Source: Bacillota bacterium (lineage in GTDB: Bacteria; Bacillota; Dethiobacteria; DTU022). Taken from it: a stretch of DNA of 55,520 nt. The stretch covers positions 1 through 55,520 of the forward strand of contig JAHYJM010000008.1 of assembly GCA_019428945.1 (NCBI GenBank), written 5' to 3'. The notes under the pieces are model-generated. The model made no database searches, was not told the origin of the DNA, and was given only the letters and a program-made list of their open reading frames with translations. This document shows positions 9,003 to 50,346 of this stretch, one piece after another; the first letter of the stretch is position 1; each line of letters begins with the position of its first letter. The translations under genes were made by a program, and so were the position numbers.

Positions 9003-9043
9003 CTTTATCCCTCCTGTATTAAATGATAATCTCTCTTTAAAAA

Positions 9044-9066
9044 GGCTCCCGGATGATCCGGGAGCC
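9044..9066 (-). terminator. terminator downstream of the AOR-operon symporter gene
   Basis: A perfect 10-bp stem GGCTCCCGGA/TCCGGGAGCC with a 3-nt loop, followed on the minus strand by TTTTTAAA. It separates the SSS gene from the saccharopine-dehydrogenase-like gene and may be partial. Confidence 0.88.
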
Positions 9067-9088
9067 GCTATTAATCCTCAGTCTATAT

Positions 9089-10663: not shown

Positions 10664-10726
10664 TTGGTTAGTCCTCCCAGTATTAATGTGATGAAGCAAC
10701 CGGCTTAATCTGGCCTGTGGTTTGAT

Positions 10727-10960
10727 TTACCCACCGGCAACCCGGGGGTTAACCACAACTACCTCACCTCCTGTTAACACTGTGTCAGGATCTGATTTTT
10801 CACCATTAATCTGGATAAAAGAAATCGAGGAAGCGGGTATCTCAAGTTGCTCAATTATTTCCCGCAATTTTACCTGAGTATGTTCGAGTTCAATCGTTAA
10901 GGGTTCGATATTGTCTCCATACTTTTTAAGAGGGCCTTTCAAGTGCAGTGTGATTTGCAT
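10727..10960 (-). CDS. MoaD/ThiS-family ubiquitin-like protein
   Basis: This protein of about 77 residues has a beta-grasp fold pattern and the C-terminal Gly-Gly (NPRVAGG) that is activated and thiocarboxylated in MoaD and ThiS. Next to an AOR gene it most likely supplies sulfur for the tungsten or molybdenum pterin, as in other AOR operons. ATG 10960 has GGGGAGG at 8 nt; an in-frame GTG lies 9 bp upstream. No MoaE or MoeB partner is visible nearby. Confidence 0.85.
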   Translation of the reverse strand: MQITLHLKGPLKKYGDNIEPLTIELEHTQVKLREIIEQLEIPASSISFIQINGEKSDPDTVLTGGEVVVVNPRVAGG

Positions 10961-10987
10961 TATACCCACCTCCCCGATTGCTGGATT

Positions 10988-12745
10988 TTAAAGATTTAAC
11001 TCTTTTTTCTTCATATCGGTTATAATGCCGTTCTCATCCCAGCCGCGCAGCTGGTAATATTCGGCAAGCATCTTGTCATATTCTTCTCTTGGCAGTAATT
11101 TTCCTTCAGTAGCTCCGGTTGTCAGTTTGTCTGAGTATATCCGTTCAGGCAGATAATCATCTTTTCTTTCAAAACCTTCCCTCTCATTGAAGAGACGGGC
11201 AAGGTTATATACACGTTCACCGATTTTGGTTAGCTCAGCGGCTGTAACCTCACGGTCGAGAAGCATACTTAAAATCTCTGCCATTCGTTCGGTACTCAAA
11301 GCCCAAAAGTCGCAGAAGATTGCTGAAAACTTTACAGCATTATCATCCTGCATACCTATGACAAGCTCGGCTTTTCCTTCACTTGTAAAGGGATCAATGT
11401 CACCAAATGCTTCTACTGCGGCAGGCCATGCTCTCATGTGGCAGGCTCCGCGGTCGGCAGTGCCATAAGCAAGACCCATAGACCATGATCCACGCGGTTC
11501 ATAACCGGGAATTTCAAGTCCCTTAACCTGCATTGCGAAATCGTTTCCGCCATATTTTTTAGCTATGGCTCTAACTCCTTCGGCCAGGTCGGCCCCTGTC
11601 CCTTCCCTGGTGGAGATCAGGCCGGGCATTTTCAGGAAATTATCAACATCTCCGAAACGGATCCCAAAATCGTGGATTCCTTTTTCCGTCAATTCCATGG
11701 CAAAGGCGACAACGTTTCCGGCTGATATAGTGTCGAGACAATAATCATCACAGAGACGGTTAAACTCGATTACTGCTTCGAGATCACCGATACCGCAGTT
11801 AGATCCGCACAGTGCAAGGGTTTCGTATTCCGGCCCTTCAACCTCTGTTTTACCTTTCTTAACATAGTTACTGCAGGCCAGGGGGCAGGCGTAACAGGCT
11901 TTTTTTGCCTTCAGAGTGCCTTTTACCGCATCCGAATTTATATTTTTGTATTGATCAAATGTACCTTCCTGAAAGTTACGGGTAGGAAGGATTCCGGTAG
12001 ACTGGCTTAAATCTACGATCATAGGGGTTCCATCGCTGTAAGCCCACATGTTGTCGTCGGTCATTGTATCTTCGCGTTTAATTTTATTTAACGCTGCTGA
12101 AACCTTACGAATATTTGGAATTTCAATACCGCCGCTGCCCCAGACAGCAACTGCCTTCAGGTTTTTACTGCCCATTACAGCTCCGATTCCGCCACGACCG
12201 GCCTGACGGTACAGTTCGGAGCTGATACAGGCCATTGGCAGCAGGTTTTCTCCGGCCTGTCCGATAGCCAGGGTAATTACGTCACCTAAGGCATCGGCGA
12301 TGAGATGTTCGGTTTCGTGAGCGCCTTTGCCCCATAAGTCTGCAGCGCTGCGCATTTCAACAATATCATCATCTATGAACAGGTAAACGGGAGCTTTTGC
12401 TTTTCCTTCGATTATTACGGCATCGTAACCGGCATATTTTAATTCATTTGCAAAGTGGCCACCGATGGAGCAGTCCAGGATGGTGCCTGTAGCGGGAGAT
12501 TTTGCTGCTATGGCCAGCTTGCCCGAGTTGGGAACAATTGTGCCTGTCATGGGGCCGGTCATCAGGATTAATTTGTTATCGGCTGATAGCGGATCCACAC
12601 CCGGTTTTAGTTCTTCATATAGATATTTAATGCTTAAACCTTTTCCACCTAAATATTCTTTTGCCCATTCTTTATTTAGCGGTTCAGTTGATGCTTTTCC
12701 TGTGGTTAAGTCAATCCTAAGTACTTTTCCGGTGTAAGCCATCAT
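10988..12745 (-). CDS. aor: aldehyde:ferredoxin oxidoreductase (tungsten/AOR family)
   Basis: This 585-residue enzyme oxidises aldehydes to carboxylic acids with ferredoxin as acceptor, using a bis-pterin tungsten (or Mo) centre and one [4Fe-4S] cluster. The AOR N-terminus (YTGKVLRIDLTTG, EYLGGKGL) is clear, as are GRGGIGAVMGSKNLKAVAV and the cluster ligands CYACPLAC with a fourth Cys around NCGIGD. The start overlaps the ferredoxin gene by 4 bp (ATGA), so the two are translationally coupled. Its place behind a class III aminotransferase suggests the aldehyde comes from a transaminated amine (inference). Confidence 0.93.
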   Translation of the reverse strand: MMAYTGKVLRIDLTTGKASTEPLNKEWAKEYLGGKGLSIKYLYEELKPGVDPLSADNKLILMTGPMTGTIVPNSGKLAIAAKSPATGTILDCSIGGHFANELKYAGYDAVIIEGKAKAPVYLFIDDDIVEMRSAADLWGKGAHETEHLIADALGDVITLAIGQAGENLLPMACISSELYRQAGRGGIGAVMGSKNLKAVAVWGSGGIEIPNIRKVSAALNKIKREDTMTDDNMWAYSDGTPMIVDLSQSTGILPTRNFQEGTFDQYKNINSDAVKGTLKAKKACYACPLACSNYVKKGKTEVEGPEYETLALCGSNCGIGDLEAVIEFNRLCDDYCLDTISAGNVVAFAMELTEKGIHDFGIRFGDVDNFLKMPGLISTREGTGADLAEGVRAIAKKYGGNDFAMQVKGLEIPGYEPRGSWSMGLAYGTADRGACHMRAWPAAVEAFGDIDPFTSEGKAELVIGMQDDNAVKFSAIFCDFWALSTERMAEILSMLLDREVTAAELTKIGERVYNLARLFNEREGFERKDDYLPERIYSDKLTTGATEGKLLPREEYDKMLAEYYQLRGWDENGIITDMKKKELNL

Positions 12746-13134
12746 TTATTCACCTCCTCGAAGGTCAGCGCTTCAGTCGGACACCAGTTTGCACAGCTGC
12801 GGCACTGAACACATACCCCGATTCCCCTGTCTTTTTTAACTATTACCTGGTTGGGGCATACATCAACACAGAGGCCACAGTCGGTGCAGAGGTCTTCCAA
12901 AAAGGATAAACGCCCGTTTTTCTCAATAATTGCATCAACCGGGCATGCCTCAACACAGCTCATGCAGAGATCACACACCTGTCCCTCCACGATCAGGCCG
13001 TCGCGATCATAACAGGAAGTTATAACCAGGCGGGCCAGGCGGGGATTAAAAATTTCTTCATTCTGGGCGCTGCAGGCCAGGTGACATAGCTTACAGCCGA
13101 TACATTTTTTTTCATGAAATACTAATGCTTTCAA
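12742..13134 (-). CDS. polyferredoxin with four [4Fe-4S] motifs (AOR electron-transfer subunit)
   Basis: This small protein has four CxxCxxCxxxC sets: CIGCKLCHLAC, CDLCMSCVEAC, CTDCGLCVDVC and CVQCRSCANWC, so it should carry four [4Fe-4S] clusters. Proteins of this type accompany AOR as the immediate acceptor (AorB/HycB-like). An upstream ATG at 13155 lies on the Shine-Dalgarno itself, so TTG 13134 (about 10 nt after AAGGAG) is the better start, giving 130 residues. It overlaps the AOR gene by 4 bp. Confidence 0.9.
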   Translation of the reverse strand: MKALVFHEKKCIGCKLCHLACSAQNEEIFNPRLARLVITSCYDRDGLIVEGQVCDLCMSCVEACPVDAIIEKNGRLSFLEDLCTDCGLCVDVCPNQVIVKKDRGIGVCVQCRSCANWCPTEALTFEEVNK

Positions 13135-13158
13135 ATACAATCCTCTCCTTTCCAAATT

Positions 13159-14508
13159 TTAATCATTATAATGCTCTGAAATTCTTTTAATAACCTTTTC
13201 CAGAACTTCGATAACATGATCGATTTCTTCGATAGCGATAGTCAGGGGCGGTTCGATTCTTATTGCAGCAGCATTATTAAGCGCCCCTGCAACAAGAATT
13301 CCGTTTTCAAAAAGTCCTTTTGCTATCCTGTAGCCAGTGTGATCATCTACAAATTCCAGGCCGATTAGCAATCCCTTTCCCCTGGCTTCTCTCAGAGCCG
13401 GATACTTACGGGCAATTCTCTGTAACTTGGGCAGAATATAATTACCTTTTTCGGCAGCCTGCTCAATTAATCCTTCGTCAAAAATAACTTTAATTCCGGC
13501 AATGGCAGCAGCGCAGGCAAGGGGGTTGCCGCCAAAAGTTGTAGAATGCAGGAATGGGTTGGGGATCATCTTTTTCCAGATCGCTTCAGTTGATACAAAA
13601 GCTCCAATTGGCATTACGCCACCACCAAAAGCTTTCCCCAGGCACATAATGTCAGGCGTTACCCCAAAATGTTCTACAGCAAAGAGCATACCAGTCCGGC
13701 CCATTCCGGTCTGTACTTCATCAATAATCAGAAGTGTGCCAAAGCTATCGCAGATATCGCGTACCTGCATGAGGTAATCGTCAGGCGGCACGACTACACC
13801 GCCTTCTCCCTGGATCGGTTCAAGTATAACTGCAGCAACTTGATGGCCAACAGCATGGGAACTTGCAATTGTTTTTCTGAGCATTTCGGCATCACCATAA
13901 GGAACGTGCTGAAAGAAAGGCATCAGGGGCAAAAATGGAAGGCGGTATGCTTCTTTGCCGGTTGCGCTCAGCGAGCCAAGAGATTTGCCATGATAACCGC
14001 CCACAGCAGCAATTATTCCCGGTCGCCCGGTATGTAAACGGGCCAGCTTGATTGCGCCTTCCACAGATTCAGTGCCGCTGTTGGTCAAAAAGCTGTACTT
14101 TAGGTTGCCTGGAGCAATCATAGCTACAAGCCTGGATAGCATTGCTCTTAAGGGGTCTAAGAGTTCCTGGCTGTGAAGAGCCTGACGCTCAAGTTGATTT
14201 CTAACTGCTTCGACAACCAGGGGATGACGATGGCCAAGGTTATAAACACCATAGCCACCGAGGCAGTCAATATATTTGCGCCCCTGCAAATCTGTAAAAC
14301 CGGTTCCGGAATCTTCCCATTCTACGGCTGCGTAGTTATTCGATACCGCTTTGCGGTATTCCAGAAAACCGGGATTGCAATTCTCTTTAAACCCTTCCAG
14401 CGTTTCACTGGTTACCCAGTCTTTATCCTGATCGGAAAGCTCCTTTTTCGATATGAAATTAAGAACTTTACTTGAATAGGATATGACCGTTTCAGGGTTA
14501 AAATTCAC
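13159..14508 (-). CDS. class III PLP aminotransferase (putrescine/ornithine-type)
   Basis: This 449-residue fold-type I aminotransferase has LTNSGTESVEGAIKLAR for PLP phosphate binding, IIDEVQTGMGRTG with the pyridine-N Asp, and LGKAFGGGVMPIGA with the Schiff-base Lys. The N-terminal extension before the catalytic core resembles putrescine aminotransferase (PatA/YgjG) more than ArgD. Likely reaction: diamine or omega-amino acid plus 2-oxoglutarate to aminoaldehyde plus glutamate. The GTG at 14508 with AGGAGG at 8 nt is the start; the open frame extends to 14604 but runs over the promoter. First gene of the AOR operon, transcribed from the sigma-54 promoter at 14587-14604. Confidence 0.88.
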   Translation of the reverse strand: MNFNPETVISYSSKVLNFISKKELSDQDKDWVTSETLEGFKENCNPGFLEYRKAVSNNYAAVEWEDSGTGFTDLQGRKYIDCLGGYGVYNLGHRHPLVVEAVRNQLERQALHSQELLDPLRAMLSRLVAMIAPGNLKYSFLTNSGTESVEGAIKLARLHTGRPGIIAAVGGYHGKSLGSLSATGKEAYRLPFLPLMPFFQHVPYGDAEMLRKTIASSHAVGHQVAAVILEPIQGEGGVVVPPDDYLMQVRDICDSFGTLLIIDEVQTGMGRTGMLFAVEHFGVTPDIMCLGKAFGGGVMPIGAFVSTEAIWKKMIPNPFLHSTTFGGNPLACAAAIAGIKVIFDEGLIEQAAEKGNYILPKLQRIARKYPALREARGKGLLIGLEFVDDHTGYRIAKGLFENGILVAGALNNAAAIRIEPPLTIAIEEIDHVIEVLEKVIKRISEHYND

Positions 14509-14586
14509 CAGGTTTTTCCTCCTGTAATAAACTGGATGAGATATATGACAGTACGTTTTACCTGCAACCTTATATTCTTGATTATA

Positions 14587-14604
14587 TTGCAAAAACAATG
14601 CCAA
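14587..14604 (-). promoter_or_regulatory. sigma-54 promoter of the aminotransferase-AOR operon
   Basis: On the minus strand it reads TTGGCATTGTTTTTGCAA: GG of the -24 box (14602-14601) and GC of the -12 box (14590-14589) with exactly 10 bp between. This matches TGGCAC-N5-TTGC closely. The divergent neighbour is a sigma-54 activator. The GTG start lies about 80 bp downstream. Confidence 0.85.
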
Positions 14605-14719
14605 ATAAGCTTATAATAAATATACCGGGCTGAAAGCATTTAGAAGCTAATAAAATAGCACTTTGTTTTCCATTGAATGTTTAAAAGCCAAATATAAATA
14701 ATAATCTGGTCCCTTTAAT

Positions 14720-14780
14720 TCTCGATATTGAGATTTTTCCAGAAAAACAGGCGCATAGCAGAAGGTTATTAACCTGTTTT
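14720..14780. promoter_or_regulatory. candidate enhancer sites (UAS) for the sigma-54 activator
   Basis: The near-palindrome TCTCGATATTGAGA (14720-14733) and an 8-bp inverted repeat AAAACAGG/CCTGTTTT (14744-14780) lie about 130-190 bp upstream of the sigma-54 promoter, the usual enhancer distance, and just upstream of the activator gene. Either could be its binding site. Confidence 0.45.
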
Positions 14781-14835
14781 GAAGAACTATTCATAATCAC
14801 TGGATAAGTAAGTCGCAAAGAGTGAAGGAGAAGAA

Positions 14836-16653
14836 ATGCCCGGATTAATGCATATACAGATGATGGTTCAGGATTTGGCAGAAGCGATAGCAGCAGCTTT
14901 GTCGGTTGAAGTGGAAATTGTTGATCACGAATTGACAGTGGTTGCCGGAAGCGGATTATACAGAAAAAGAATCGGCCAGAAAGAAGAATTGGGCCAACTT
15001 GATAGTGATTATCTTTATGCCCGGACCCTGCGCAGCGGGAAGTCATTTGTGGTTACTGATCCGGTTAGCGATCCCGAATATGATCCTTCTTCACTTGAAG
15101 GCACCACCCCTGAGTTGGCTGAGATATGTTCTCCTATTATCATGGACAATAATGTCATCGGTGTGATCGGCCTTGTGGCTTTCACCCCTGAACAGAAAAA
15201 AATTCTTTTATCAAAAACTGAGGCTGTCCTCTCATTTTTACAGCATTTGAGCCGCTTTCTGGCGGCTAAAGTATCGGAAAGCGAAGCGGTTGAACGACTG
15301 ACAATTCTTTCAAATGAACTGACTGCAATAATTGAAACTATACACGAAGGAGCTCTTGCCATAAATGCGGAGGGTTTTGTTACTCATTGCAACACTACGG
15401 CAGAAAAACTGCTGAAGTTAAACAGGGAGGAGATTATTGGCAGTAATTTAGAAGATCTCCTTCCCGGAGCTCCTGCGCTGGAAGTTCTTGAAACGGGTAC
15501 TGAATATATTGAGAAAGAAGAGATTTACCAGGCCCGGGGCAGACGCAGCATGCACTTTATAGTTTCAGTGCGTCCAATTGCAGGCAGAGAAAAACCTGAA
15601 GGAGCTGTTGTTTCATTCCGGGATATTTCTGAAGCACGGCGCCTTATTTATGATTTGAGTTCAACCGCAATGGATTATACTTTTGATGACATCATTGGCG
15701 AAAGCCTGGCGATCGGGAATGTAAAAGAACAGGCCTTAAAGGTAGCCGGTGGCAACTCAACTGTATTAATTACAGGTGAAAGCGGAACCGGCAAAGAGAT
15801 ATTTGCCAGGGCTATACATAAGGCCAGCCCCAGGGAAGAAGGACCATTTATCAGTGTTAACTGCGGAGCCATACCTGAAACTCTTTTAGAAAGTGAACTT
15901 TTCGGGTATGAGGGAGGCGCATTTACCGGAGCCAGGAAAGAAGGAAAAGCCGGAAAATTTGAACTGGCCAGTGATGGTACTATCTTTCTTGATGAAATAG
16001 GTGAAATGCCCCTGCATCTGCAGGTAAAACTGCTTCACGTGCTCCAAAACAGGGAAGTAGAAAGAGTTGGCGGGTCGAAAAAAATACCTGTCGATGTGAG
16101 AATTATCGCCGCCTCGAACCGTGATCTGGAAAAGATGATGCAGGAAGGTAACTTCAGAAAAGATCTTTATTTCCGCTTAAGTGTTATTCCCCTGCACATT
16201 CCCCCGTTGAAAGATAGAAGGGAAGATATCCCTGCTCTTGTCAAACGCTGCCTGGCCAAGTACGGTCCCATGCTGAATAAGCATTTCAGTGACATAGAGC
16301 CTGAGGCGATGGAGTGCCTGCTTCGCTATAACTGGCCGGGCAATGTAAGAGAACTTGAAAATGCTCTTGAATATGCTGTTAACATGGCTGGTGGAGATTT
16401 AATAACATACAGCAGCCTACCGCCGAGAGTAAAAAATATAGAAAAAGAAACTATCGCCAGAGTGGATGCCTCCCTGAAGGAGAAAGTTCGGGATTATGAA
16501 AGAATGATTCTGCAGGATTACCTGGATCGTTTCGGTGATACATATGAAGGTAAAAGCGATATTGCTGATAAACTTGAAATAAGCAGGGCAACTCTATACC
16601 GGAAGTTATCCGAGTTGGGGCTTGCCGGCAGACTAAAGGAGGATGATCAATGA
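14836..16653 (+). CDS. sigma-54-dependent enhancer-binding regulator (GAF-like, PAS, AAA+, HTH)
   Basis: This 605-residue bacterial enhancer-binding protein has an N-terminal GAF-like sensor (about 1-145), a PAS domain (about 155-275), the AAA+ domain with Walker A GESGTGKE (314-321) and the sigma-54 contact loop GAFTGA (361-366), Walker [10 protein letters not shown] near 385, and a C-terminal Fis-type HTH ([18 protein letters not shown]). There is no receiver domain, so it senses a ligand rather than a phosphorelay. Both metabolic arms around it have sigma-54 promoters, so it is their likely activator. It overlaps the aminopropyltransferase gene by 4 bp. Confidence 0.95.
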
Positions 16654-17558
16654 CCCCGTTGGAATGGAACTGGTATATTGAGTATTCAAGCGATTATCAT
16701 GGTTATCTTTATGCAATCAGAAAGTATTTATTCAGTGATGAAACACCTTTTCAGAAAGTTGACATAGTCGATACATTTACATATGGCCGATTATTGATAC
16801 TTGACGGGAAAACACAGTCAGCCGAATTTGATGAACACATCTATCACGAAGCTCTTGTGCACCCGGCAGCTGTTATGCATCCCGGTCCGGCAAAGGTTAT
16901 GGTTATGGGCGGCGGAGAAGGAGCTGTTCTTCGTGAACTTTGTCGCTACGATAACATAGAAGAAGTTGTCATGGTTGATATCGACAGCAAAGTTGTTGAA
17001 ATGTGCATAAAGCATCTGCCTGAATGGCATCAGGGCAGTTTTGATGACAGCAGGGTTGAACTGTTGCATATGGATGCCAGGCGCTACCTGGAGGAGACAG
17101 ATAAGAAGTTTGACATTATCTACAGCGACCTTACTGAACCGGCTGAAGAAGGTCCGTCAAAAATGCTTTTTACGCGTGAGTTTTATAATATGATTAAAAC
17201 TAAACTTAATCCGGGCGGTATACTGGCTGTTCAATCCGGTGGATTCAGCCTGGACTACCTCAGTATCCACTCTGCAATCAGGAATACAATGGAGATGAAC
17301 TTCGATAATGTTCGCTCCTATCATACTTTTATCCCTTCTTTTGATTGTTCATGGGGATATATTATTGCCAGCGCAGATAGTGAACTGTTAAATATAAGCC
17401 GGGCTGAAGTTGACAGGCGTTTAAGCCCAATCGCTGATCAGCTCAGGTTTTATGATGGTGAAACCCATGAGGGGATGTTTTGCATTCCCAAAGATATCCG
17501 CAAAGCTCTGCATGATGATCAGACTATAATCGAGGATGACAAACCGGTAAATTTTTAG
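16650..17558 (+). CDS. speE: polyamine aminopropyltransferase, ACL5/thermospermine-synthase-like
   Basis: This 302-residue enzyme of the spermidine synthase fold transfers aminopropyl from decarboxylated SAM to a di- or polyamine. The SAM-binding motif is [11 protein letters not shown], with GGGEG rather than the GGGDG of typical SpeE, and the catalytic region reads [18 protein letters not shown], similar to the DLADPxEGGP segment of ACL5-type thermospermine synthases. That points to a larger acceptor than putrescine, but specificity is unproven. The start overlaps the regulator by ATGA, so expression is coupled. No SAM decarboxylase is in the window. A terminator follows. Confidence 0.85.
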
Positions 17559-17605
17559 AAGCGGTTAATTGTTCAGCTCGGGAGAGCATATCGAATTAAT
17601 AAGAA

Positions 17606-17635
17606 AGAGGCTATCTTAATCGATAGCCTCTAATG
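17606..17635. terminator. bidirectional terminator
   Basis: A 10-bp stem AGAGGCTATC/GATAGCCTCT (17606-17631) with a 6-nt loop between convergent genes, followed by AATGTTTTA on the plus strand and by TTTCTT on the minus strand. Confidence 0.85.
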
Positions 17636-17655
17636 TTTTAAAAACTGACCAGTAA

Positions 17656-18840
17656 TCAGGAACGATCTTCAATCGCCACCATCATGCCATAATCAGGCAG
17701 CTTTTCTACAAAAGGTTCCGGGTCGAGCGCTTCGGGCGGTACTGCTCCCCTGGTTTTTAGAAATCCTTCTGCAAGAAGATCTGCTGCCAGAGCGGCCGGT
17801 ATCCCTGTCTGGAACGAAGTACCCTGTTCCTGCAGGTTCCGGTAAGCCTCTTCATGGTTAACAGTGTTATACATAAATTTGGCGACTTTCTTACCATCTT
17901 TGTAACCCCTGACCAGGGTGCCCACACATACATTGCCTTTTATCTTACCGGCAAGATCTGCCGGACGGGGCAGTAAAGCAGTTACAACATCGCGCGGAAC
18001 TACCTGAACATCGTTAACGTCAATCGGTTTATCACTGTCAAGGCCGATCATTCTCAGTACATCCATCATTGTTACAAGCTCATCGGCAAGGCCATAGCCA
18101 AAGTTGCAGTTTTGCAGACCTTCTTTGTTAATATAGCGGGGTAGTGTCCAGGCCTCTTCATGAGATACTCCATATACCTTAACCCTGCCTACCGGATCGG
18201 GAAATACAAATTCTTCAATTACCTGAAGAGGATCTTTCGTCAGGAAACTTCCCTTCTCAAAATAGAGAGGTGGTTCCGAGACACATTCATCTATAAATGT
18301 GTCGGGAGAAAAATATAGGGCAAGTTCGTACCCCTCCACGTACGACACATCGGCATCACGAACAAGGATTTCTTCAACGCTATCCATCCGGTCGGCAAGG
18401 TACCTGGCAAAAATATTGCTGCAGCCGGGGTCGATACCAATACCGCAGAGAGCCAGCAGATCGGCGTTCTTATAACGTTCATCAAGCGCCAGCTGTTCTG
18501 ATATATCGATCTTTCCCGGGAGCTTAAGCAGGGTTTCACAGGCCAGATCCATATAGTGGCATTTGCCAGCCAGGCAGGCTTCCATAACAATCAAGTTGAA
18601 ACGGGGCACAGTCGCATTAATCAGAATGTCCACCTCTGAAGCCAGCTTGGTAACTTCGCTGAGATCAGATGCATCTACTATAATCCCTTTAAAAATATTG
18701 CTCTCGATATCACTTATGACGGTTTCTACCACTTCAGACTCTCGGTCGGCACAGATAACCTCGGCAAATTTTCCGGTGCGGGCAGCCGATTTTGCAATTA
18801 CTCTTCCAACGCCACCGAGGCCTAATATTGCCAGTTTCAT
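17656..18840 (-). CDS. saccharopine dehydrogenase-like oxidoreductase (copy 2)
   Basis: This 394-residue paralogue of the protein at 7734-9002 has a Rossmann motif LAILGLGGVGRVIAKSA, INATVPRFN after the first domain, GIGIDPGCSNIFARYLA aligned with GSGVEPGMADVFARYAA of copy 1, and a similar DPEPFVEKLPDYG end. LYS1 family: saccharopine or carboxy(nor)spermidine-type dehydrogenase chemistry. ATG with GGAGTG upstream. It faces the sigma-54 regulator and aminopropyltransferase genes, so a polyamine-like secondary amine is an attractive but untested substrate. Confidence 0.85.
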   Translation of the reverse strand: MKLAILGLGGVGRVIAKSAARTGKFAEVICADRESEVVETVISDIESNIFKGIIVDASDLSEVTKLASEVDILINATVPRFNLIVMEACLAGKCHYMDLACETLLKLPGKIDISEQLALDERYKNADLLALCGIGIDPGCSNIFARYLADRMDSVEEILVRDADVSYVEGYELALYFSPDTFIDECVSEPPLYFEKGSFLTKDPLQVIEEFVFPDPVGRVKVYGVSHEEAWTLPRYINKEGLQNCNFGYGLADELVTMMDVLRMIGLDSDKPIDVNDVQVVPRDVVTALLPRPADLAGKIKGNVCVGTLVRGYKDGKKVAKFMYNTVNHEEAYRNLQEQGTSFQTGIPAALAADLLAEGFLKTRGAVPPEALDPEPFVEKLPDYGMMVAIEDRS

Positions 18841-38076: not shown

Positions 38077-39378
38077 TTGTCTGAAGCTTACTCAGTTCAC
38101 TATTTGTCTAACGGAATAAGACTATTATTTCTGGCCACAAAAAAGTTTAAAACTATTTCACTGGGTCTGTTTATTCACCGGGATCTAAAACCGGAGACTG
38201 TCGCTTTAAATGCACTGCTGCCCTCGGTTTTGGAGCAGGGCTGTCGTCTTTACCCCGATTATCTCACCCTTCAGCGTCACTTGGAGAATCTGTACGGTTC
38301 GGAGCTTTCCACAGATATTATAAAAAGTGGTGAAAGACAGATAATTGCTTTCGGGTTGGAATCGGCTCACGATCGCTTTCTGGGAGAGAACGGCAGATTA
38401 TTGAAAGAATCCTTATCTCTTCTTGGATCAGTGGTGAGCGATCCGCTGTTGGAAAATGGGGTTTTTAGGGAAGATTATATCAGACAGGAAAAAAATCAAC
38501 TGGTTAAAGATATAAAAGCTTTGCTTAACGATAAGGCGGCTTATGCCATGGAGCGCTGCTTGTCAGAGATGTGCGCGGATGAAAAGTTTGGGGTTTATAA
38601 ACTGGGCCGAATCGAAGATTATAAAGATATCGATGCCAGGATGCTCTACAGTTATTACAGAGAGCTGCTCTCTGAAAGCCCGATCGATCTCTATATAATA
38701 GGCGATCTTGATGAAGCTGAAGTTATTGAGACCGCTGAAAAGGCATTCACTATTTCCCGCAGCAGCAATATAGCTGAACTCGCTCCGGCCAGTACAAACC
38801 GTTTTATAAGCGATATTCGCACCATCGAAGAAGAGATGACAGTAAACCAGGCCAAGATGGTGCTTGGTTATCGCACTTATACCGATTTTGATGATTCGTT
38901 GCACTGCCCGCTTCTTGTTTACAGCGGCGTTCTGGGTGGCTTTCCGCACTCAAAGCTCTTTATGAAGGTGCGTGAAGAAGCAAGCCTGGCCTATTATATC
39001 CATACCCGCCTAGAGAGACATAAAGGTCTGATGGTAATTGCAGCCGGTATTAATCCTGTTGACCATGATAATGCCAGAAAAATTATCGATGAGCAGTTAA
39101 ATGACATGGTTGAAGGTCGAATCAGCAAAACTGAGCTGGACAATACCAGGCGGGGTTTGATTAATAGTTTGCTGTCACGTCAGGACAGCCCCAGCCAGCT
39201 AATTTCATTTCATCTCGATGGCATGGTGGGAAATAAAGTTTATACCTTTGAAGAGCTGATTTCCGGGATAGAATCTGTGAGCATAGAAGATATACAGGAG
39301 ATAGCCGGGCGGATCAAGCTCGACACTGCTTACCTGCTCAAACCCAGGGAGGGAGAGGACGTTATTTATGAAGACTAA
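38077..39378 (+). CDS. M16-family peptidase-like protein without the zinc motif (YmfF-like)
   Basis: This 433-residue M16 (insulinase) fold protein lacks HxxEH at the expected place (LPSVLEQGCRLYPDY), so it should be inactive itself and act as partner of the next protein. TTG 38077 has AAAGGAGG at 8 nt. The following gene overlaps by 11 bp and carries the active site, the usual YmfF-YmfH arrangement of Firmicutes. In Bacillus this region is linked to EF-P modification and motility, but the biochemical role is not settled. Confidence 0.85.
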   Translation: MSEAYSVHYLSNGIRLLFLATKKFKTISLGLFIHRDLKPETVALNALLPSVLEQGCRLYPDYLTLQRHLENLYGSELSTDIIKSGERQIIAFGLESAHDRFLGENGRLLKESLSLLGSVVSDPLLENGVFREDYIRQEKNQLVKDIKALLNDKAAYAMERCLSEMCADEKFGVYKLGRIEDYKDIDARMLYSYYRELLSESPIDLYIIGDLDEAEVIETAEKAFTISRSSNIAELAPASTNRFISDIRTIEEEMTVNQAKMVLGYRTYTDFDDSLHCPLLVYSGVLGGFPHSKLFMKVREEASLAYYIHTRLERHKGLMVIAAGINPVDHDNARKIIDEQLNDMVEGRISKTELDNTRRGLINSLLSRQDSPSQLISFHLDGMVGNKVYTFEELISGIESVSIEDIQEIAGRIKLDTAYLLKPREGEDVIYED

Positions 39379-40675
39379 TTACAGGCTGATTGAAAACAAA
39401 GCCCTGCAGGAGTCAGTATATCATTACCGGATCAACCCGGGAATGGATCTCTATATACTGCCAAGGGCAGGTTATCAGAAAAAATATGCTATTTTTTCAA
39501 CTCGCTTTGGTTCGATAGACAACAGTTTCAGGGTTGAGCCCGAAAACGAAATAACAGCTTTACCGGACGGCGTAGCTCACTTTCTGGAACACAAGCTTTT
39601 TGAAGACGAACAGGGAAATGTATTTGATCGTTTTGCCGCGCTGGGTGCTTCAGCTAATGCCTTCACATCTTTTACCCAGACAACTTATCTGTTTTCCTGT
39701 ACTGCCAATTTTGAACAAAACCTTACTGAGCTGCTTAATTTTGTTCAAGATCCTTATTTTACAGAAGAAACTGTGAGTAAAGAGCAGGGAATCATCGGGC
39801 AGGAAATCAGAATGTATGAGGATCACCCGCACTGGAGGGTTTTCTTCAATCTCCTTGAATCTTTATACCGTGAGCACCCGGTTCGAAATGATATTGCCGG
39901 CACTGTCGAGAGCATATCAGGGATTACACCCGACCTCCTTTACCGCTGCTACAATACATTTTACCATCCCAGTAACATGGCTGTATTTCTCGTTGGTGAC
40001 CTCGAGCCTGACCGGGTTGCAGCCCTGGTCGAAGAGAATTTATCTGCCAGAAACTATAAGCAGATGGGAGCCATTGTCCGTTATTATCCCGAAGAGCCTG
40101 AAGCGATTATGAAAGAAAAAACATCCCAGGAGCTGGTCGTTTCAGAGCCAATTTTTTACCTGGGTTTTAAAGATAATGTAATTAATAAACTAACCGGACG
40201 GGATCTGATGCACCGGGAACTATTAATGGAGTTGATCCTTGATACTCTTTTCGGAACCAGTGAAATGCTTTACAACGATCTCTACAAGGCTGATTTAATT
40301 GATGAAGGTTTCGGTTTTGAGTATGCCGCTGAGAGTACATATGGTTACACGATGATCGGAGGGGAAACCAAAGACCCCGAACGGCTCCATGAGCAGATCA
40401 TAAAGGAAATTAAAAAAGCGCAGAAAAATGGTATCAGTGAAGAACAGTTTGAACGGCATCGCCGTAAAATTTTAGGCAGCTACATCAGGAAATTCGATTC
40501 GCTCGAATTTATAGCGAATAACTTTTTAGCTTATAAGTTCAGGGATACCGATCTCTTCGAACTCCCCGGCGTGCTAAATGAAGTGAAAAGAGAGGAAGCG
40601 CTGGCGCTGATCGGGGAGAATCTAAATCCTGACAGGCATGCTGTGTCGCTTATATTACCCCTGACAGATGGGTAA
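39368..40675 (+). CDS. M16-family zinc metallopeptidase (YmfH-like)
   Basis: This 435-residue M16 peptidase has the inverted zinc motif HFLEHKLFE (HxxEH) near residue 75 and a downstream Glu in the EQGIIGQEIRMYED region, so the Zn site is complete. It likely forms a heterodimer with the inactive partner encoded upstream (11-bp overlap). Substrate unknown; intracellular peptide or processing roles are possible. A terminator follows. Confidence 0.9.
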   Translation: MKTNYRLIENKALQESVYHYRINPGMDLYILPRAGYQKKYAIFSTRFGSIDNSFRVEPENEITALPDGVAHFLEHKLFEDEQGNVFDRFAALGASANAFTSFTQTTYLFSCTANFEQNLTELLNFVQDPYFTEETVSKEQGIIGQEIRMYEDHPHWRVFFNLLESLYREHPVRNDIAGTVESISGITPDLLYRCYNTFYHPSNMAVFLVGDLEPDRVAALVEENLSARNYKQMGAIVRYYPEEPEAIMKEKTSQELVVSEPIFYLGFKDNVINKLTGRDLMHRELLMELILDTLFGTSEMLYNDLYKADLIDEGFGFEYAAESTYGYTMIGGETKDPERLHEQIIKEIKKAQKNGISEEQFERHRRKILGSYIRKFDSLEFIANNFLAYKFRDTDLFELPGVLNEVKREEALALIGENLNPDRHAVSLILPLTDG

Positions 40676-45406: not shown

Positions 45407-45435
45407 TTGATTTTTTACAGCGGGTGCGATAAAAT
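45407..45435 (+). promoter_or_regulatory. promoter of the aminotransferase-reductase fusion gene
   Basis: TTGATT (45407-45412), 17-bp spacer, TAAAAT (45430-45435). Predicted transcription start near 45442, directly before the palindrome at 45447. Confidence 0.7.
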
Positions 45436-45446
45436 AGCCTCATTGG

Positions 45447-45466
45447 TGTGCACATTAATGTGCACA
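45447..45466. promoter_or_regulatory. perfect 20-bp palindromic operator
   Basis: TGTGCACATTAATGTGCACA is fully symmetric and sits 11 bp after the -10 box, covering the expected transcription start and early transcript, 19 bp before the ATG. This is a classic repressor position. The binding protein is unknown; the TetR gene at 50377 is one candidate in the window. Confidence 0.8.
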
Positions 45467-45485
45467 ATCTTCCGGGAGGCTGATT

Positions 45486-48113
45486 ATGAATAATTTTACC
45501 CGTTATGTGAACCCGCATCTGGGCGAGATGCTTGAAAGTATCAAGCTTGATCAAAAGTATGTGCGCGGAGAAGGCTGCTACCTTTATGATGACAGGGGCA
45601 ACCGCTACCTCGATTGTATCGCTGCCTATGGCGCCCTGCCATTTGGCCATAATCCATCTCAAATCTGGGAAGCGATCATTAATTTTCAAAACTCCATGGA
45701 GCCGAGCTTCATTCAACCCTCAGCTCTTGATGCTGCCGGCGAATTAGCGCGCCGGCTGGTTGAAATATCTCCTGAAGGCCTGGAGTTTGTAACATTTGCC
45801 AATAGCGGCACCGAGGCTGTGGAGGCAGCTATAAAATTGTGCCGTTCTTCTACCGGCCGACCGGGAATTCTTGCCACTGATAACAGTTTCCACGGAAAAA
45901 CCTTTGGTGCTTTATCAGCAACCGGCAATGCCGGTTACCAGAGCCCTTTTTATGCTCCGGCAGAACATTTCAGCCATATAGCATATGGTGATGCAGAGGC
46001 CCTCGAGAAAGAGCTGAAGGCAAAACCGAAGCATTACGCCGCATTTCTGGTAGAACCGATCCAGGGAGAGGGTGGCATTATAGAACCGCCTTCCGGTTAT
46101 CTGTCCCGGGCCAGGGAAATCTGCCACAATTATGGTGTGCTTCTTGTTTTTGATGAAGTTCAGACCGGTCTTGGCCGGACAGGAACACTCTTCGCCTGCG
46201 AGGAAGAAAATGTAGCACCCGATGTATTGGTGCTGGCCAAAGCGCTTGGTGGGGGCATAATGCCCATTGGAGCCTGTCTCAGCAACGAAACTGCCTATAA
46301 CGAAGATTTTGGTCTCAAACATTCATCTACATTTGCCGGCAATTCGCTTGCATGCCGTGTCGGTTTAAGGGTGCTTGATCTTCTTTCTGAAGATAATAAA
46401 AACATGTTAAAAAGTGTTCGGGAAAAAGGAAAAATATTGTCTAAGGGTTTAAAAGAACTGCAGAAAAAGTATCCCGGCTTAATCAGTAAAATTCGCGGCA
46501 GAGGCCTTATGCTCGGTATCGAATTCAATATGAAACGGGATAATTTTCCCGGATCTCTCCTGGGTATTATGGCAGAGCAGGAACTGCTAACCCCGGCTAT
46601 TTCATCCTATTTGCTCAACGTTGAAAAAGTACGGGTTGCCCCGACTCTGAACGGGAATGCTGTGATCAGAATTGAGCCACCGCTCATTATCAGCGAAGAG
46701 CAGTGCCGCCAGGCTCTGGCAGGAATTGAAGCCATGCTTGAGGTTTTAAAAGAAGGCAGCACTGCCCGTTTTTTGGCTTACCTTGTGCGGCCCGATGATT
46801 TGGTGAAAAATGGAAAATATATTCCTTTTGTTCCTTATCCGGCGCCAAATTATATTCCGGACGGTACTGCGGAAGAAGGCCGTTTTGCCTTTCTCGTCCA
46901 CGCTCTTGATCTTAAAAGTTATCCCCAGTTTGATAATAGCCTGCTCTCTTTCAGCCATGATGAGCTTGCCGATCTGACCGGTCGCTTTAACGGTATGATT
47001 GAACCATTCGTAGCTGGTAAGACTAAAATTAAATCAATATCAGGCCGTGAAGCATATGGCGAATTTATTGCTCTGTCACGCACTACTGATGATTTTATCG
47101 AACTGCCTCGCAGCCAGGCGTTAACTGAGCTTAAAGCGGCAGTTGCCATGGCCAGGGAGCGTGGTGCTAAAATTGTCGGATTAGGCGCATTTACTGCCGT
47201 AGCTTCAATGGGGGGGCTTTATCTCAAAAACGAAGGTGTGCCCATTACCACCGGTAACAGCTATACGGTTGTATCTGCTGTTGAAGCCGTTAATACCGCT
47301 ACCGACAGGCTGAAGATCGACCGCGCTGAAACCACTGCGGCAATCGTCGGCGCTGCCGGTTCAATCGGCAGGGGTATATCAATGCTGCTCTCAGAAACCG
47401 TGCCACGATTAATCCTGATCGGCAACCCGAATAACCAGACTTCCAGCGAAAGGCTGCATATGGTTGCCGCCGAGATCTACCGTTATCAATCGGCGCTGCT
47501 CAAACAGGGCCGCCCCCTGAAAGAAGGCAGCATGGCCCATCTTCTGGCCGGCTGCATTCAACTGCCGGATCCGGAAGCGCCCATGGATAAATTTGAAGAA
47601 TTTGTCGATAGTAAAGGCAGGGAGCTCGGTTTAATCGAGTTTTCAACAGACATAGACGCAGTTCTGGCCAGGGCTGATATTGTGATCAGCGCCACCAGCG
47701 CAACGGATAAAGTAATTCATGCCGGCAACCTGAAAACCGGCGCCATTGTTTGTGACATCTCGCGGCCGGCCAACGTCAGTGAAGAGGTTGATGCCGCCCG
47801 TCCCGACGTCCTGGTTATAGATGGCGGAGTGGTCGAGGTTCCCGGGCAGCCTTCGCTGGGCTGGGATTTCGGTTTCGAGGAAGGCCTGGCATACGCCTGT
47901 ATGGCCGAGACAATGTTGCTTGCCCTTGAGCAGCATTATAAACATTACAGCCTTGGATCATCGGGAGTTAACCTGGAGACGATCTTACAGACACGCTACT
48001 GGGCTGAAGAGCATGGTTTTAAATTGGCCAACTTCCGCAGTTTCAATCGCCCCTTAAGTGAAGAAAGCTGGCAGAGGCTTTTAAAAACCCGCCGGGAACT
48101 GGTCGCCCGCTGA
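45486..48113 (+). CDS. fusion: class III aminotransferase plus acyl-ACP-reductase-like (COG5322) dehydrogenase
   Basis: This 875-residue two-domain protein has at residues 1-420 a complete PLP aminotransferase of the ornithine/acetylornithine type (NSGTEAVEAAIKL, DEVQTGLGRTG with Asp223, LAKALGGG with Lys252). Residues 440-875 resemble the predicted dehydrogenase family that includes long-chain acyl-ACP reductase: VGLGAFTAVASMGG (from 564), PITTGNSYT (586-594), the Rossmann motif GAAGSIGRG (622-630) and VCDISRPANV with Cys756. Cys690 and Cys756 are candidate thioester residues. The two halves could turn an acyl thioester into aldehyde and then amine, or the reverse (inference). ATG has GGGAGG at 8 nt. 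A promoter with a 20-bp palindrome precedes it; proS follows. Confidence 0.82.
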   Translation: MNNFTRYVNPHLGEMLESIKLDQKYVRGEGCYLYDDRGNRYLDCIAAYGALPFGHNPSQIWEAIINFQNSMEPSFIQPSALDAAGELARRLVEISPEGLEFVTFANSGTEAVEAAIKLCRSSTGRPGILATDNSFHGKTFGALSATGNAGYQSPFYAPAEHFSHIAYGDAEALEKELKAKPKHYAAFLVEPIQGEGGIIEPPSGYLSRAREICHNYGVLLVFDEVQTGLGRTGTLFACEEENVAPDVLVLAKALGGGIMPIGACLSNETAYNEDFGLKHSSTFAGNSLACRVGLRVLDLLSEDNKNMLKSVREKGKILSKGLKELQKKYPGLISKIRGRGLMLGIEFNMKRDNFPGSLLGIMAEQELLTPAISSYLLNVEKVRVAPTLNGNAVIRIEPPLIISEEQCRQALAGIEAMLEVLKEGSTARFLAYLVRPDDLVKNGKYIPFVPYPAPNYIPDGTAEEGRFAFLVHALDLKSYPQFDNSLLSFSHDELADLTGRFNGMIEPFVAGKTKIKSISGREAYGEFIALSRTTDDFIELPRSQALTELKAAVAMARERGAKIVGLGAFTAVASMGGLYLKNEGVPITTGNSYTVVSAVEAVNTATDRLKIDRAETTAAIVGAAGSIGRGISMLLSETVPRLILIGNPNNQTSSERLHMVAAEIYRYQSALLKQGRPLKEGSMAHLLAGCIQLPDPEAPMDKFEEFVDSKGRELGLIEFSTDIDAVLARADIVISATSATDKVIHAGNLKTGAIVCDISRPANVSEEVDAARPDVLVIDGGVVEVPGQPSLGWDFGFEEGLAYACMAETMLLALEQHYKHYSLGSSGVNLETILQTRYWAEEHGFKLANFRSFNRPLSEESWQRLLKTRRELVAR

Positions 48114-48240
48114 AAATTATGTTAGAATGATCAGCAGTTAAAAGCACCTGGTGATCTGTGCTTACCTGACACAGCAGATCCGGGTTTGCTGATCTATAGT
48201 GGCAACACTAATACTAACAGGTTCAGAAAGGGTGGTCGGT

Positions 48241-49713
48241 GTGGAAGAAAAAAAGGGGCGCGAAAACAGGGGACAGAATAAAGAATTTGTCAAAGAGATA
48301 ACCCCGAAAGCGGTCGATTATTCGCAGTGGTATGTCGATGTAATCTTAAAGACAAAAATGATGGATTATTCACCGGTAAAGGGCTTTATGGCTATTCGCC
48401 CCGCCGGATATGCCATATGGGAAAAAATTCAGGAAAAGATGGATCGCCGTTTCAAAGAGACGGGACACCAGAATGCATATTTCCCGCTGCTTATTCCACA
48501 GAGCCTGCTCCAGAAAGAGGCAGAGCACGTTGAAGGATTTGCCCCTGAAGTGGCCTGGGTCACTAAGGGTGGTAATGAAGTGCTAGCCGAACCGCTCCTT
48601 GTGCGTCCCACTTCCGAATCTATCATATGTGATTTTTACTCTCGCTGGGTTCAGTCCTGGCGTGATCTGCCCATATTAATCAACCAATGGTGCAGTGTGG
48701 TCCGCTGGGAAAAATCAACCAAACCTTTTCTTCGCACATCCGAGTTTCTGTGGCAGGAAGGTCACACATGTCATCGCACAGAAGAGGAAGCTGAGGCAGA
48801 AACACTGCAAATGCTTAACGTATACAAAGATTGTATCGAGAAAGAGATGGCCATCCCGGTAATTGCCGGCAGAAAAACAGAAAGAGAGAAGTTTGCCGGA
48901 GCCCTGCGCACCTATTCAGTGGAAGCTCTGATGAGTGACGGTCGCGCCCTGCAGGCCGGTACTTCCCACAACCTGGGCCAGCATTTTGCAAAAGTTTTTG
49001 ACATCACATTCCTCGATCAGGATGACCAGTTGAAGCATGTATGGCAGACATCCTGGGGCGCCTCCACCCGCCTGATCGGTGCCCTGATCATGGTTCACGG
49101 CGACGATCGCGGCCTTGTTCTTCCACCGCGACTGGCACCGATTCAGATTGTCATTGTTCCCATCCTGACTAAAAAAGATCGCGAGCGTGTTCTTGAATCA
49201 GTCAGCGAACTTGAAAAGGAACTTAAAAAAGAGATCAGGGTTAAACTTGACGACCGTGAAGAATATTCCCCGGGCTGGAAGTTTAATGACTGGGAAATGC
49301 GCGGCATTCCACTCCGCATAGAAATTGGCCCCAAGGATCTCGATAAAGGCCACGTGGTGCTGGTCCGCCGTGACACAGGAGAGAAGCAGTTTGTTCCGCG
49401 TGAAGAACTGGCAGATAAACTGCCGCTGCTGCTTGAACAGATCCAGAATGACATGTACAAAAAAGCAGTTGATTTTCGTGAAGCTAATACCCGCAGCGGT
49501 TCGGATTATGAAGAATTTAAAAGAATCATGGATGGGGAACGCGGTTTCTTTGTTGCTTCATGGTGCGGCAATTCAGCCTGTGAAGAGAAAATCAAGAACG
49601 ATACCAAGGCTACTATCCGCTGCCTGCCTTTCGATATGAAACCTGAAGATGATCACTGTTTTGCCTGTGGAGAAAAGGCAGAGGCTGTCGCATATTTTGC
49701 CCGGGCGTATTAA
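48241..49713 (+). CDS. proS: prolyl-tRNA synthetase, archaeal/eukaryotic-type (type 3)
   Basis: This class II synthetase of about 490 residues charges tRNA-Pro. The compact architecture, without the editing insertion of bacterial-type ProRS, includes motif 2-like RTSEFLWQEGHT, TSHNLGQHFAKVF, motif 3-like MVHGDDRGLVLPPRLAP and the extra C-terminal zinc-type domain (SWCGNSACEEKI, DHCFACGEKAEAVAYFARAY) of the archaeal type. GTG 48241 behind AAAGGGTGG is preferred over TTG 48199... an upstream in-frame start that adds 14 atypical residues. No T-box sequence fits the short leader. Confidence 0.94.
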   Translation: MEEKKGRENRGQNKEFVKEITPKAVDYSQWYVDVILKTKMMDYSPVKGFMAIRPAGYAIWEKIQEKMDRRFKETGHQNAYFPLLIPQSLLQKEAEHVEGFAPEVAWVTKGGNEVLAEPLLVRPTSESIICDFYSRWVQSWRDLPILINQWCSVVRWEKSTKPFLRTSEFLWQEGHTCHRTEEEAEAETLQMLNVYKDCIEKEMAIPVIAGRKTEREKFAGALRTYSVEALMSDGRALQAGTSHNLGQHFAKVFDITFLDQDDQLKHVWQTSWGASTRLIGALIMVHGDDRGLVLPPRLAPIQIVIVPILTKKDRERVLESVSELEKELKKEIRVKLDDREEYSPGWKFNDWEMRGIPLRIEIGPKDLDKGHVVLVRRDTGEKQFVPREELADKLPLLLEQIQNDMYKKAVDFREANTRSGSDYEEFKRIMDGERGFFVASWCGNSACEEKIKNDTKATIRCLPFDMKPEDDHCFACGEKAEAVAYFARAY

Positions 49714-49770
49714 TACACTGCCGGGCAATAGTACATGATTTAATTGATCTCAAAGTACCGGGAGCGCGCT

Positions 49771-50346
49771 ATGGAAAAAAAGAAACTAAGACAAACAATT
49801 ATTGAACAAAGAGACAAACTTACATCGGAAGAGATTATCGATAAGAGTAATCTGATTGCAGAGAAACTCTACAGCCTCTCCGCTTATCAGAATGCCGGGG
49901 CAGTTATGTTCTTTATCTCCTTCGGCAGTGAAGTTGATACAAGATCTATGGTAGAAGAAACAATCAGAAGGGGCAAGCTGGCGCTTGCCCCGAAAGCCTT
50001 ACCAAAAACACGGGAATTAATTCCTTCGCGAATCCTTAACTGGGATGAAGATCTCGCTCCGGGCGCTTACGATATCCCCGAGCCGCGCGATGATACGCTG
50101 CGACCCTGCAAACCTGATCTTATCGACCTGTTGATTGTGCCCGGAGTTGCTTTTGATCTAAAAGGCAATCGCCTCGGTTACGGCGGAGGTTATTATGATC
50201 GTTTCTTTCCCCTTTTAAAGCCGGGTACACCAATGGTCGCCCTGGTATATGATCTCCAGATTCAACCTGTTATTCCTGTTGAAGAATGGGATCAACCCGT
50301 TGATATAGTAATAACGGAAAAAAGGATTATCAAAGCAAATCTTTAA
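49771..50346 (+). CDS. 5-formyltetrahydrofolate cyclo-ligase
   Basis: This 191-residue enzyme converts 5-formyl-THF to 5,10-methenyl-THF with ATP. It has the N-terminal KKKLRQTIIEQRDKL, FFISFGSEVDT and the signature DLKGNRLGYGGGYYDRFF. ATG 49771 is preferred; an in-frame TTG at 49744 lacks a good ribosome site. It is probably co-transcribed with proS (57-bp gap) and fits a folate-dependent C1 metabolism that includes formate dehydrogenase. Confidence 0.92.
   Translation: MEKKKLRQTIIEQRDKLTSEEIIDKSNLIAEKLYSLSAYQNAGAVMFFISFGSEVDTRSMVEETIRRGKLALAPKALPKTRELIPSRILNWDEDLAPGAYDIPEPRDDTLRPCKPDLIDLLIVPGVAFDLKGNRLGYGGGYYDRFFPLLKPGTPMVALVYDLQIQPVIPVEEWDQPVDIVITEKRIIKANL

Follow-up and report, generated by a model that had tools for sequence, protein, structure and literature searches.

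An aminotransferase–thioester-reductase fusion of Bacillota and its apparent place in an HTH-controlled regulon

On a stretch of 55,520 nucleotides from a Bacillota contig (JAHYJM010000008.1, positions 1 to 55,520; hereafter the window), a single chain of 875 residues joins an aminotransferase to a module resembling the acyl-ACP reductases, and is encoded immediately upstream of the gene for prolyl-tRNA synthetase. The locus raises the question of what kind of enzyme such a chain represents and what it does beside genes of ordinary housekeeping.

Domains and relatives of the fused protein

The gene and its predicted functional parts are as follows.

45486-48113, + strand: AT-TR fusion gene, 875 aa from an ATG start, defined by domain matches and relatives
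45486-46769, + strand: class III aminotransferase (AT) domain, N-terminal, residues 1-428 (Aminotran_3 on 24-417)
46152-46154, + strand: Asp223 (DEVQTG), invariant in 43 aligned full-length fusions
46239-46241, + strand: Lys252 (AKALGGG), predicted PLP Schiff-base lysine, invariant in the 43 fusions
46878-48095, + strand: acyl-ACP-reductase-like Rossmann (TR) domain, C-terminal, residues ~465-870, from profile and structure-sequence matches
47349-47369, + strand: GAAGSIG (622-628), NAD(P)H-binding GxxGxxG motif, glycines invariant in the 43 fusions
47898-47900, + strand: Cys805 (YACMAET), predicted acyl-enzyme cysteine, invariant in the 43 fusions and aligned with SeAAR Cys294 and PigE Cys296

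The translated frame has no internal stop, and the preliminary description of a complete class III aminotransferase and a COG5322-type module in one chain is borne out by matches to both families. Pfam Aminotran_3 matches residues 24-417 with an E-value of 4.3e-96, and the TR half, scanned alone, hits the reductase domain of PigE (E 5.5e-48) as well as the AcACP_reductase model TIGR04058 (E 2.1e-23), while phmmer comparison of the same half with solved structures returns 6jzq, 6jzu and the N-terminal part of PigE (4ppm) at E-values of 4e-15 to 5e-24. The AlphaFold2 model of the whole chain has a mean pLDDT of 90.6 and a pTM of 0.85, and a fold search of the PDB with this model places PigE and the YgjG aminotransferases at the top. 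Among solved single-domain enzymes, those nearest to the AT domain are putrescine aminotransferases. Invariance of the catalytic residues was read from an alignment of 43 full-length fusions; Asp223 is presumably the residue that binds the pyridine nitrogen of PLP in class III aminotransferases.

The preliminary description knew of no characterised enzyme with this architecture. That statement was mistaken, because fusions of the same domain order (PtTamH, KecF, PpKTFusion, TfFusion, TmFusion and TsFusion) have already been published. PtTamH, from the tambjamine YP1 pathway of Pseudoalteromonas tunicata, converts C12-ACP to the aldehyde and then to the amine with NADH and L-Glu, and does not use C12-CoA (PMC9594044); the rejection of acyl-CoA indicates a narrow substrate specificity, which is therefore not transferable to the window protein. 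Like the window protein, PtTamH consists of a class III aminotransferase followed by an AAR-like TR domain, with a PLP lysine, a GxxGxxG motif and a catalytic cysteine of matching types, but it is 941 aa long and belongs to an alkaloid cluster that includes an ACP partner, TamA, and no such partner lies near the window gene. KecF of the koreenceine pathway begins with an aminotransferase and ends with a COG5322 domain, and its gene is required for inhibitory activity linked to an amine-derived alkaloid (PMC6498172); it thus shares the order of the window protein, but is encoded in a type II PKS cluster. Prout et al. (2024) purified PpKTFusion from Pseudomonas putida and TfFusion, TmFusion and TsFusion from Thermincola and Thermaerobacter, measured their transamination and found that amines also serve as donors; the C-terminal activity was not determined, so that transamination is the measured activity of the Bacillota fusions (PMC10829540). 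These four proteins, three of them from Bacillota, have the architecture of the window protein, a likeness drawn from their description.

Two further comparisons place the window protein outside more narrowly defined enzymes. In PigE of the prodigiosin pathway (PDB 4ppm) the reductase comes first and the aminotransferase second, and both steps have been proposed to occur in one chain (PMC8341465); both domains are homologous to those of the window protein, but their order is reversed, PigE forms a separate clade in both domain trees, and the window protein scores 559.9 bits against the PigE model NF053554, below its cut-off of 850. The cyanobacterial acyl-ACP reductase SeAAR (PDB 6jzq/6jzu) agrees with the TR domain in fold, in the NAD(P)H motif and in the cysteine, but is a single domain; the window protein scores 83.2 bits against the long-chain acyl-ACP reductase model TIGR04058 (cut-off 449.7) and 337.7 bits against the putrescine aminotransferase model PatA/YgjG (NF008570; cut-off 612). 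The Rossmann domain of the fusions also carries a helical insertion of ~60 residues (residues ~650-715, window ~47433-47630) that is present neither in stand-alone reductases nor in SeAAR and that possibly contacts the aminotransferase domain.

In a tree of TR domains that took in no sequences of PtTamH, KecF or TfFusion, 30 AT-first fusions (25 from Bacillota and 5 that are plasmid-borne in proteobacteria) form one clade with support of 99/98, and PigE (100/99) and the stand-alone reductases (100/97) stand apart from it. Some of the plasmid relatives are richer in domains. A Paraburkholderia phymatum plasmid protein (L195 6450-9386), 45% identical across window residues 8-867, has the order ACP-AT-TR, with an AMP-binding gene and a P450 downstream, and a Leisingera plasmid protein of 1395 aa (L194 10768-14952) unites AT, TR and an acyl-adenylating AMP-binding domain in one chain. 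Such attached ACP and acyl-adenylating domains speak for an acyl substrate in this family that is activated by ATP and bound to ACP. With an N-terminal PLP-lysine aminotransferase, a C-terminal reductase bearing GxxGxxG and the cysteine, and a place in the common TR clade, the window enzyme belongs to the aminotransferase-thioester-reductase (TA-TR) family, of which other bacteria have furnished earlier examples, and this assignment of enzyme class is made with high confidence.

Distribution of the fusion and the reductase slot

All 22 good-quality genomes of the window's family match the reductase half, most of them as a fused frame of 860-940 aa, and the fusion is single-copy in almost every genome of the family, where it lies beside housekeeping genes. 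A further scan yielded 80 loci, nearly all from Bacillota (two are titled as other phyla and are probably mislabelled bins), almost all of which contain both domains, many on truncated contigs. The fusion, which might have been peculiar to one assembly, is thus present in relatives; since it is read in one frame in most genomes of the family and in many Bacillota families, a frameshift or assembly artefact is ruled out as its source. One metagenome bin (L136 8756-11748) has the fusion as two frames, of 685 and 325 aa, a possible frameshift or assembly error of its own. A cultured representative with a fusion is the isolate Lutispora saccharofermentans (L114).

Across 399 evenly sampled genomes of the phylum, the reductase was found in 241 (~60%), and a hand count divides these into ~43 with the fusion only, ~9 with both the fusion and a stand-alone reductase, and ~190 with the stand-alone form only. 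In related families that are free of the fusion, the stand-alone reductase (~360 aa) is encoded within a conserved operon of the order dusB-HTH-c2-reductase-greA-lysS, where HTH is a helix-turn-helix regulator (for example L076 3702-4247) and c2, a name given here, denotes a protein of ~300 aa that matches nothing in Pfam or NCBIfam (for example L076 2789-3685). This operon recurs in the window's genome on another contig, C52, but lacks the reductase, leaving just ~300 bp between c2 and greA; an identical empty slot is seen in 10 further genomes that have only the fusion. In genomes with both forms the stand-alone reductase stays in the operon slot, and elsewhere the fusion itself fills the slot, as in dusB-HTH-c2-fusion-greA-lysS (L122), HTH-c2-fusion-greA (L128) or HTH-c2-fusion (L121, L132 and L154). 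The fusion therefore appears to take the place of the operon's stand-alone reductase. Functional equivalence of the two forms is held with good confidence, but as ~9 genomes keep both, they may not be fully equivalent.

The companion protein c2 occurs in 291 of the 399 genomes, in 236 of the 241 with a reductase and in 55 without one, counts that are not corrected for relatedness. A match to c2 is absent from three fairly complete fusion genomes, two of which (L095 and L101) keep the operator of the fusion described below. The top fold match of c2 is an acyl-ACP reductase (TM 0.48), but a dead reductase copy is not claimed, because profile comparison by hhalign gives a probability of 1.2%.

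In the window the gene order is ymfF, ymfH, a hybrid-cluster block, VanZ, the fusion and proS, and the syntenic neighbours are located as follows.

38077-39378, + strand: ymfF, M16 peptidase family
39368-40675, + strand: ymfH, M16 peptidase family
48199-49713, + strand: proS, prolyl-tRNA synthetase, with a true start probably nearer 48241
49744-50346, + strand: 5-formyltetrahydrofolate cyclo-ligase

Sister families have another aminotransferase at this locus. In 15 of 15 sampled sister-family genomes with the locus (L202-L212, L214 and L216-L218), a single-domain aminotransferase, which shares ~40-46% identity with the AT domain of the fusion, adjoins ymfF-ymfH or lies one gene on, and proS is downstream wherever the contig extends so far. 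Five genomes in which the fusion occupies the reductase slot, lies close to it or is placed elsewhere showed no aminotransferase beside ymfF-ymfH. Local birth of the fusion from the neighbouring aminotransferase is not supported, as the AT tree does not place the domains of the fusions inside the group of ymfFH-proS aminotransferases. It therefore seems more likely, to judge from this tree, that the fusion displaced the single-domain aminotransferase of this slot than that it arose on the spot.

An operator shared with the HTH operon

The region directly upstream of the fusion contains three elements.

45407-45435, + strand: promoter-like TTGATT-17-TAAAAT directly upstream of the operator; the consensus is weak, and the -10 box recurs in relatives
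45448-45465, no strand assigned: palindromic operator GTGCACATTAATGTGCAC, the only site in the window with two or fewer mismatches
45474-45479, + strand: GGGAGG ribosome-binding site

The operator is a perfect palindrome of the pattern GTGCACA-N4-TGTGCAC and lies between the -10-like box and the ribosome-binding site. When this pattern was sought with up to two mismatches within 300 bp upstream of genes, it was found upstream of 50 of 89 fusions (32 of them perfect, most with their first base 36-47 bp ahead of the start codon) and upstream of 27 of the 30 HTH genes of the operon, whether the reductase is present there or gone. None of 213 control regions upstream of dusB, c2, reductase, greA, lysS, ymfF, ymfH, proS and cyclo-ligase genes contained it. 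The remaining 39 fusions have no operator directly upstream, a few of these being inside the HTH operon. Of the 15 genomes whose ymfFH slot holds a stand-alone aminotransferase, one (L205) carries a site with two mismatches at position -41 of that gene. A wider scan of ~0.70 Mb, made up of the pieces of the window's genome and 400 kb of a relative, revealed plausible sites at the HTH and fusion promoters alone, with one further site that is intragenic and has two mismatches.

The common operator and the empty or filled reductase slot together suggest that the fusion belongs to a small dedicated regulon with the HTH operon, in which it replaces the operon's reductase. The simplest reading is that an autoregulated HTH repressor also controls the fusion, its binding being deduced here from the position of the sites. 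Literature searches returned nothing on the operator or the operon, although one of the searches was swamped by unrelated words; the operon and operator context, and the apparent role of the fusion as a stand-in for the reductase in many Bacillota, are as far as we found new.

Proposed function and competing explanations

The reading that best accommodates these observations, to which we assign a probability of about 0.75, is that the window protein is a TA-TR enzyme that replaces the stand-alone reductase of the operon and is controlled by HTH through GTGCACA-N4-TGTGCAC. In the proposed mechanism Cys805 of the TR domain would accept the acyl group of a carrier thioester, most likely acyl-ACP, and NAD(P)H would reduce it with release of the aldehyde; the AT domain, with PLP on Lys252, would then convert the aldehyde to a primary amine at the expense of an amino donor, for instance glutamate. 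Within the lineage of the window the fusion would thus do the job done elsewhere by the reductase of the HTH-c2-reductase operon, under the control of that operon's HTH regulator. The conversion of acyl thioester to aldehyde to amine within one chain, put forward in the preliminary description, gains support from homology, conserved active sites and published relatives: transamination has been measured for PtTamH (PMC9594044) and for TfFusion and others (PMC10829540), and acyl-ACP reduction for PtTamH. That the window protein performs both reactions, with acyl-ACP as substrate, and that HTH binds the operator, we infer from these relatives and from the genomic context.

The product is a separate matter, and any specific compound, including the fatty amine, amino-alcohol or modified amino acid suggested in the preliminary description, could be named with low confidence only. 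Among the annotated window ORFs we found neither a biosynthetic cluster nor a gene for an ACP or an acyl ligase, and a small conserved pathway of ordinary metabolism is favoured. A broader proposal, to which we would give even odds, is that a core Bacillota regulon consists of an autoregulated HTH repressor, c2 and an acyl-thioester reductase, that the TA-TR fusion has replaced the last of these in many lineages and kept the operator even at a distant locus, and that this apparently undescribed system serves ordinary metabolism by making the aldehyde or amine of a lipid or cofactor not yet recognised, as opposed to a natural product. A reductase, stand-alone or fused, is present in ~60% of the 399 sampled genomes of the phylum, and no role for it was found in the literature; the operator, the regulator, the exchangeable reductase and the constant partner c2 offer handles on a role in Bacillota outside natural-product clusters. 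The TA-TR family is useful for making amines from fatty acids, and the window enzyme enlarges it.

Among the alternatives, a secondary-metabolite enzyme making an alkaloid amine, as in the tambjamine, koreenceine and prodigiosin pathways, is unlikely. The closest characterised relatives do act in such pathways, the proteobacterial ones are located with ACP, adenylating or P450 genes, and the thermophiles that Prout et al. worked on reportedly contain NRPS/PKS clusters detected by antiSMASH (PMC10829540). However, location in a natural-product cluster is typical of the proteobacterial members and not of the fold, genes of this kind were not found among the annotated window ORFs, and a single copy beside housekeeping genes in nearly all genomes of the family is unlike the patchy occurrence of such clusters.

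It is also improbable that the fusion serves the modification of the EF-P lysine by supplying or aminating an acyl-derived group in place of GsaB, YnbB and YmfI of B. subtilis. The location invites this explanation, in that ymfF-ymfH precede the fusion in most of its family with proS on the other side, and the neighbours exceed the NCBIfam cut-offs for 'EF-P 5-aminopentanol modification-associated' proteins. The organism has its own EF-P with a modifiable loop lysine, PGKGQAF (L157), and GsaB is itself a class III aminotransferase, with a fatty-acid intermediate as the proposed precursor (PMC5885033). The case is weakened because YnbB (PF06838), which B. subtilis strictly requires, is missing from all five family genomes tested, the window's own among them (G000, G014, G027, G028 and G036). 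Furthermore, the 25 best matches of the SDR before ymfF include no model of an EF-P reductase, the fusion is not beside ymfF-ymfH outside the window's family, and the operator links it to the HTH-c2 operon instead. The window's genome has kept ymfF and ymfH (38077-40675) although YnbB is missing from it.

A reversed flow, from amine through aldehyde to acyl thioester in salvage or detoxification, would suit the reversibility of class III aminotransferases, the nearness of the AT domain to putrescine aminotransferases among solved single-domain enzymes, the use of amines as donors by published fusions, and a small inducible regulon under an amine- or aldehyde-sensing repressor, but there is little chance of it, given that acyl-ACP reductases of the same fold run reductively, that PtTamH proceeds from acid to amine, and that relatives bear ACP or acyl-adenylating domains, which are suppliers of acyl chains.

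Two other features of the window lie apart from the fusion. The region 7737-18840 is likely a cluster for polyamine or amine catabolism, with genes for a putrescine-aminotransferase-like protein (13162-14604; 677.7 bits, above the NF008570 cut-off of 612), a ferredoxin, an aldehyde ferredoxin oxidoreductase, a sodium:solute symporter, a PrdR-like sigma-54 regulator, a spermidine-synthase-like protein and two saccharopine-dehydrogenase-like proteins. A selenocysteine tRNA is encoded at 290-379 on the + strand (Rfam RF01852, 71 bits), and the organism therefore probably makes selenoproteins.
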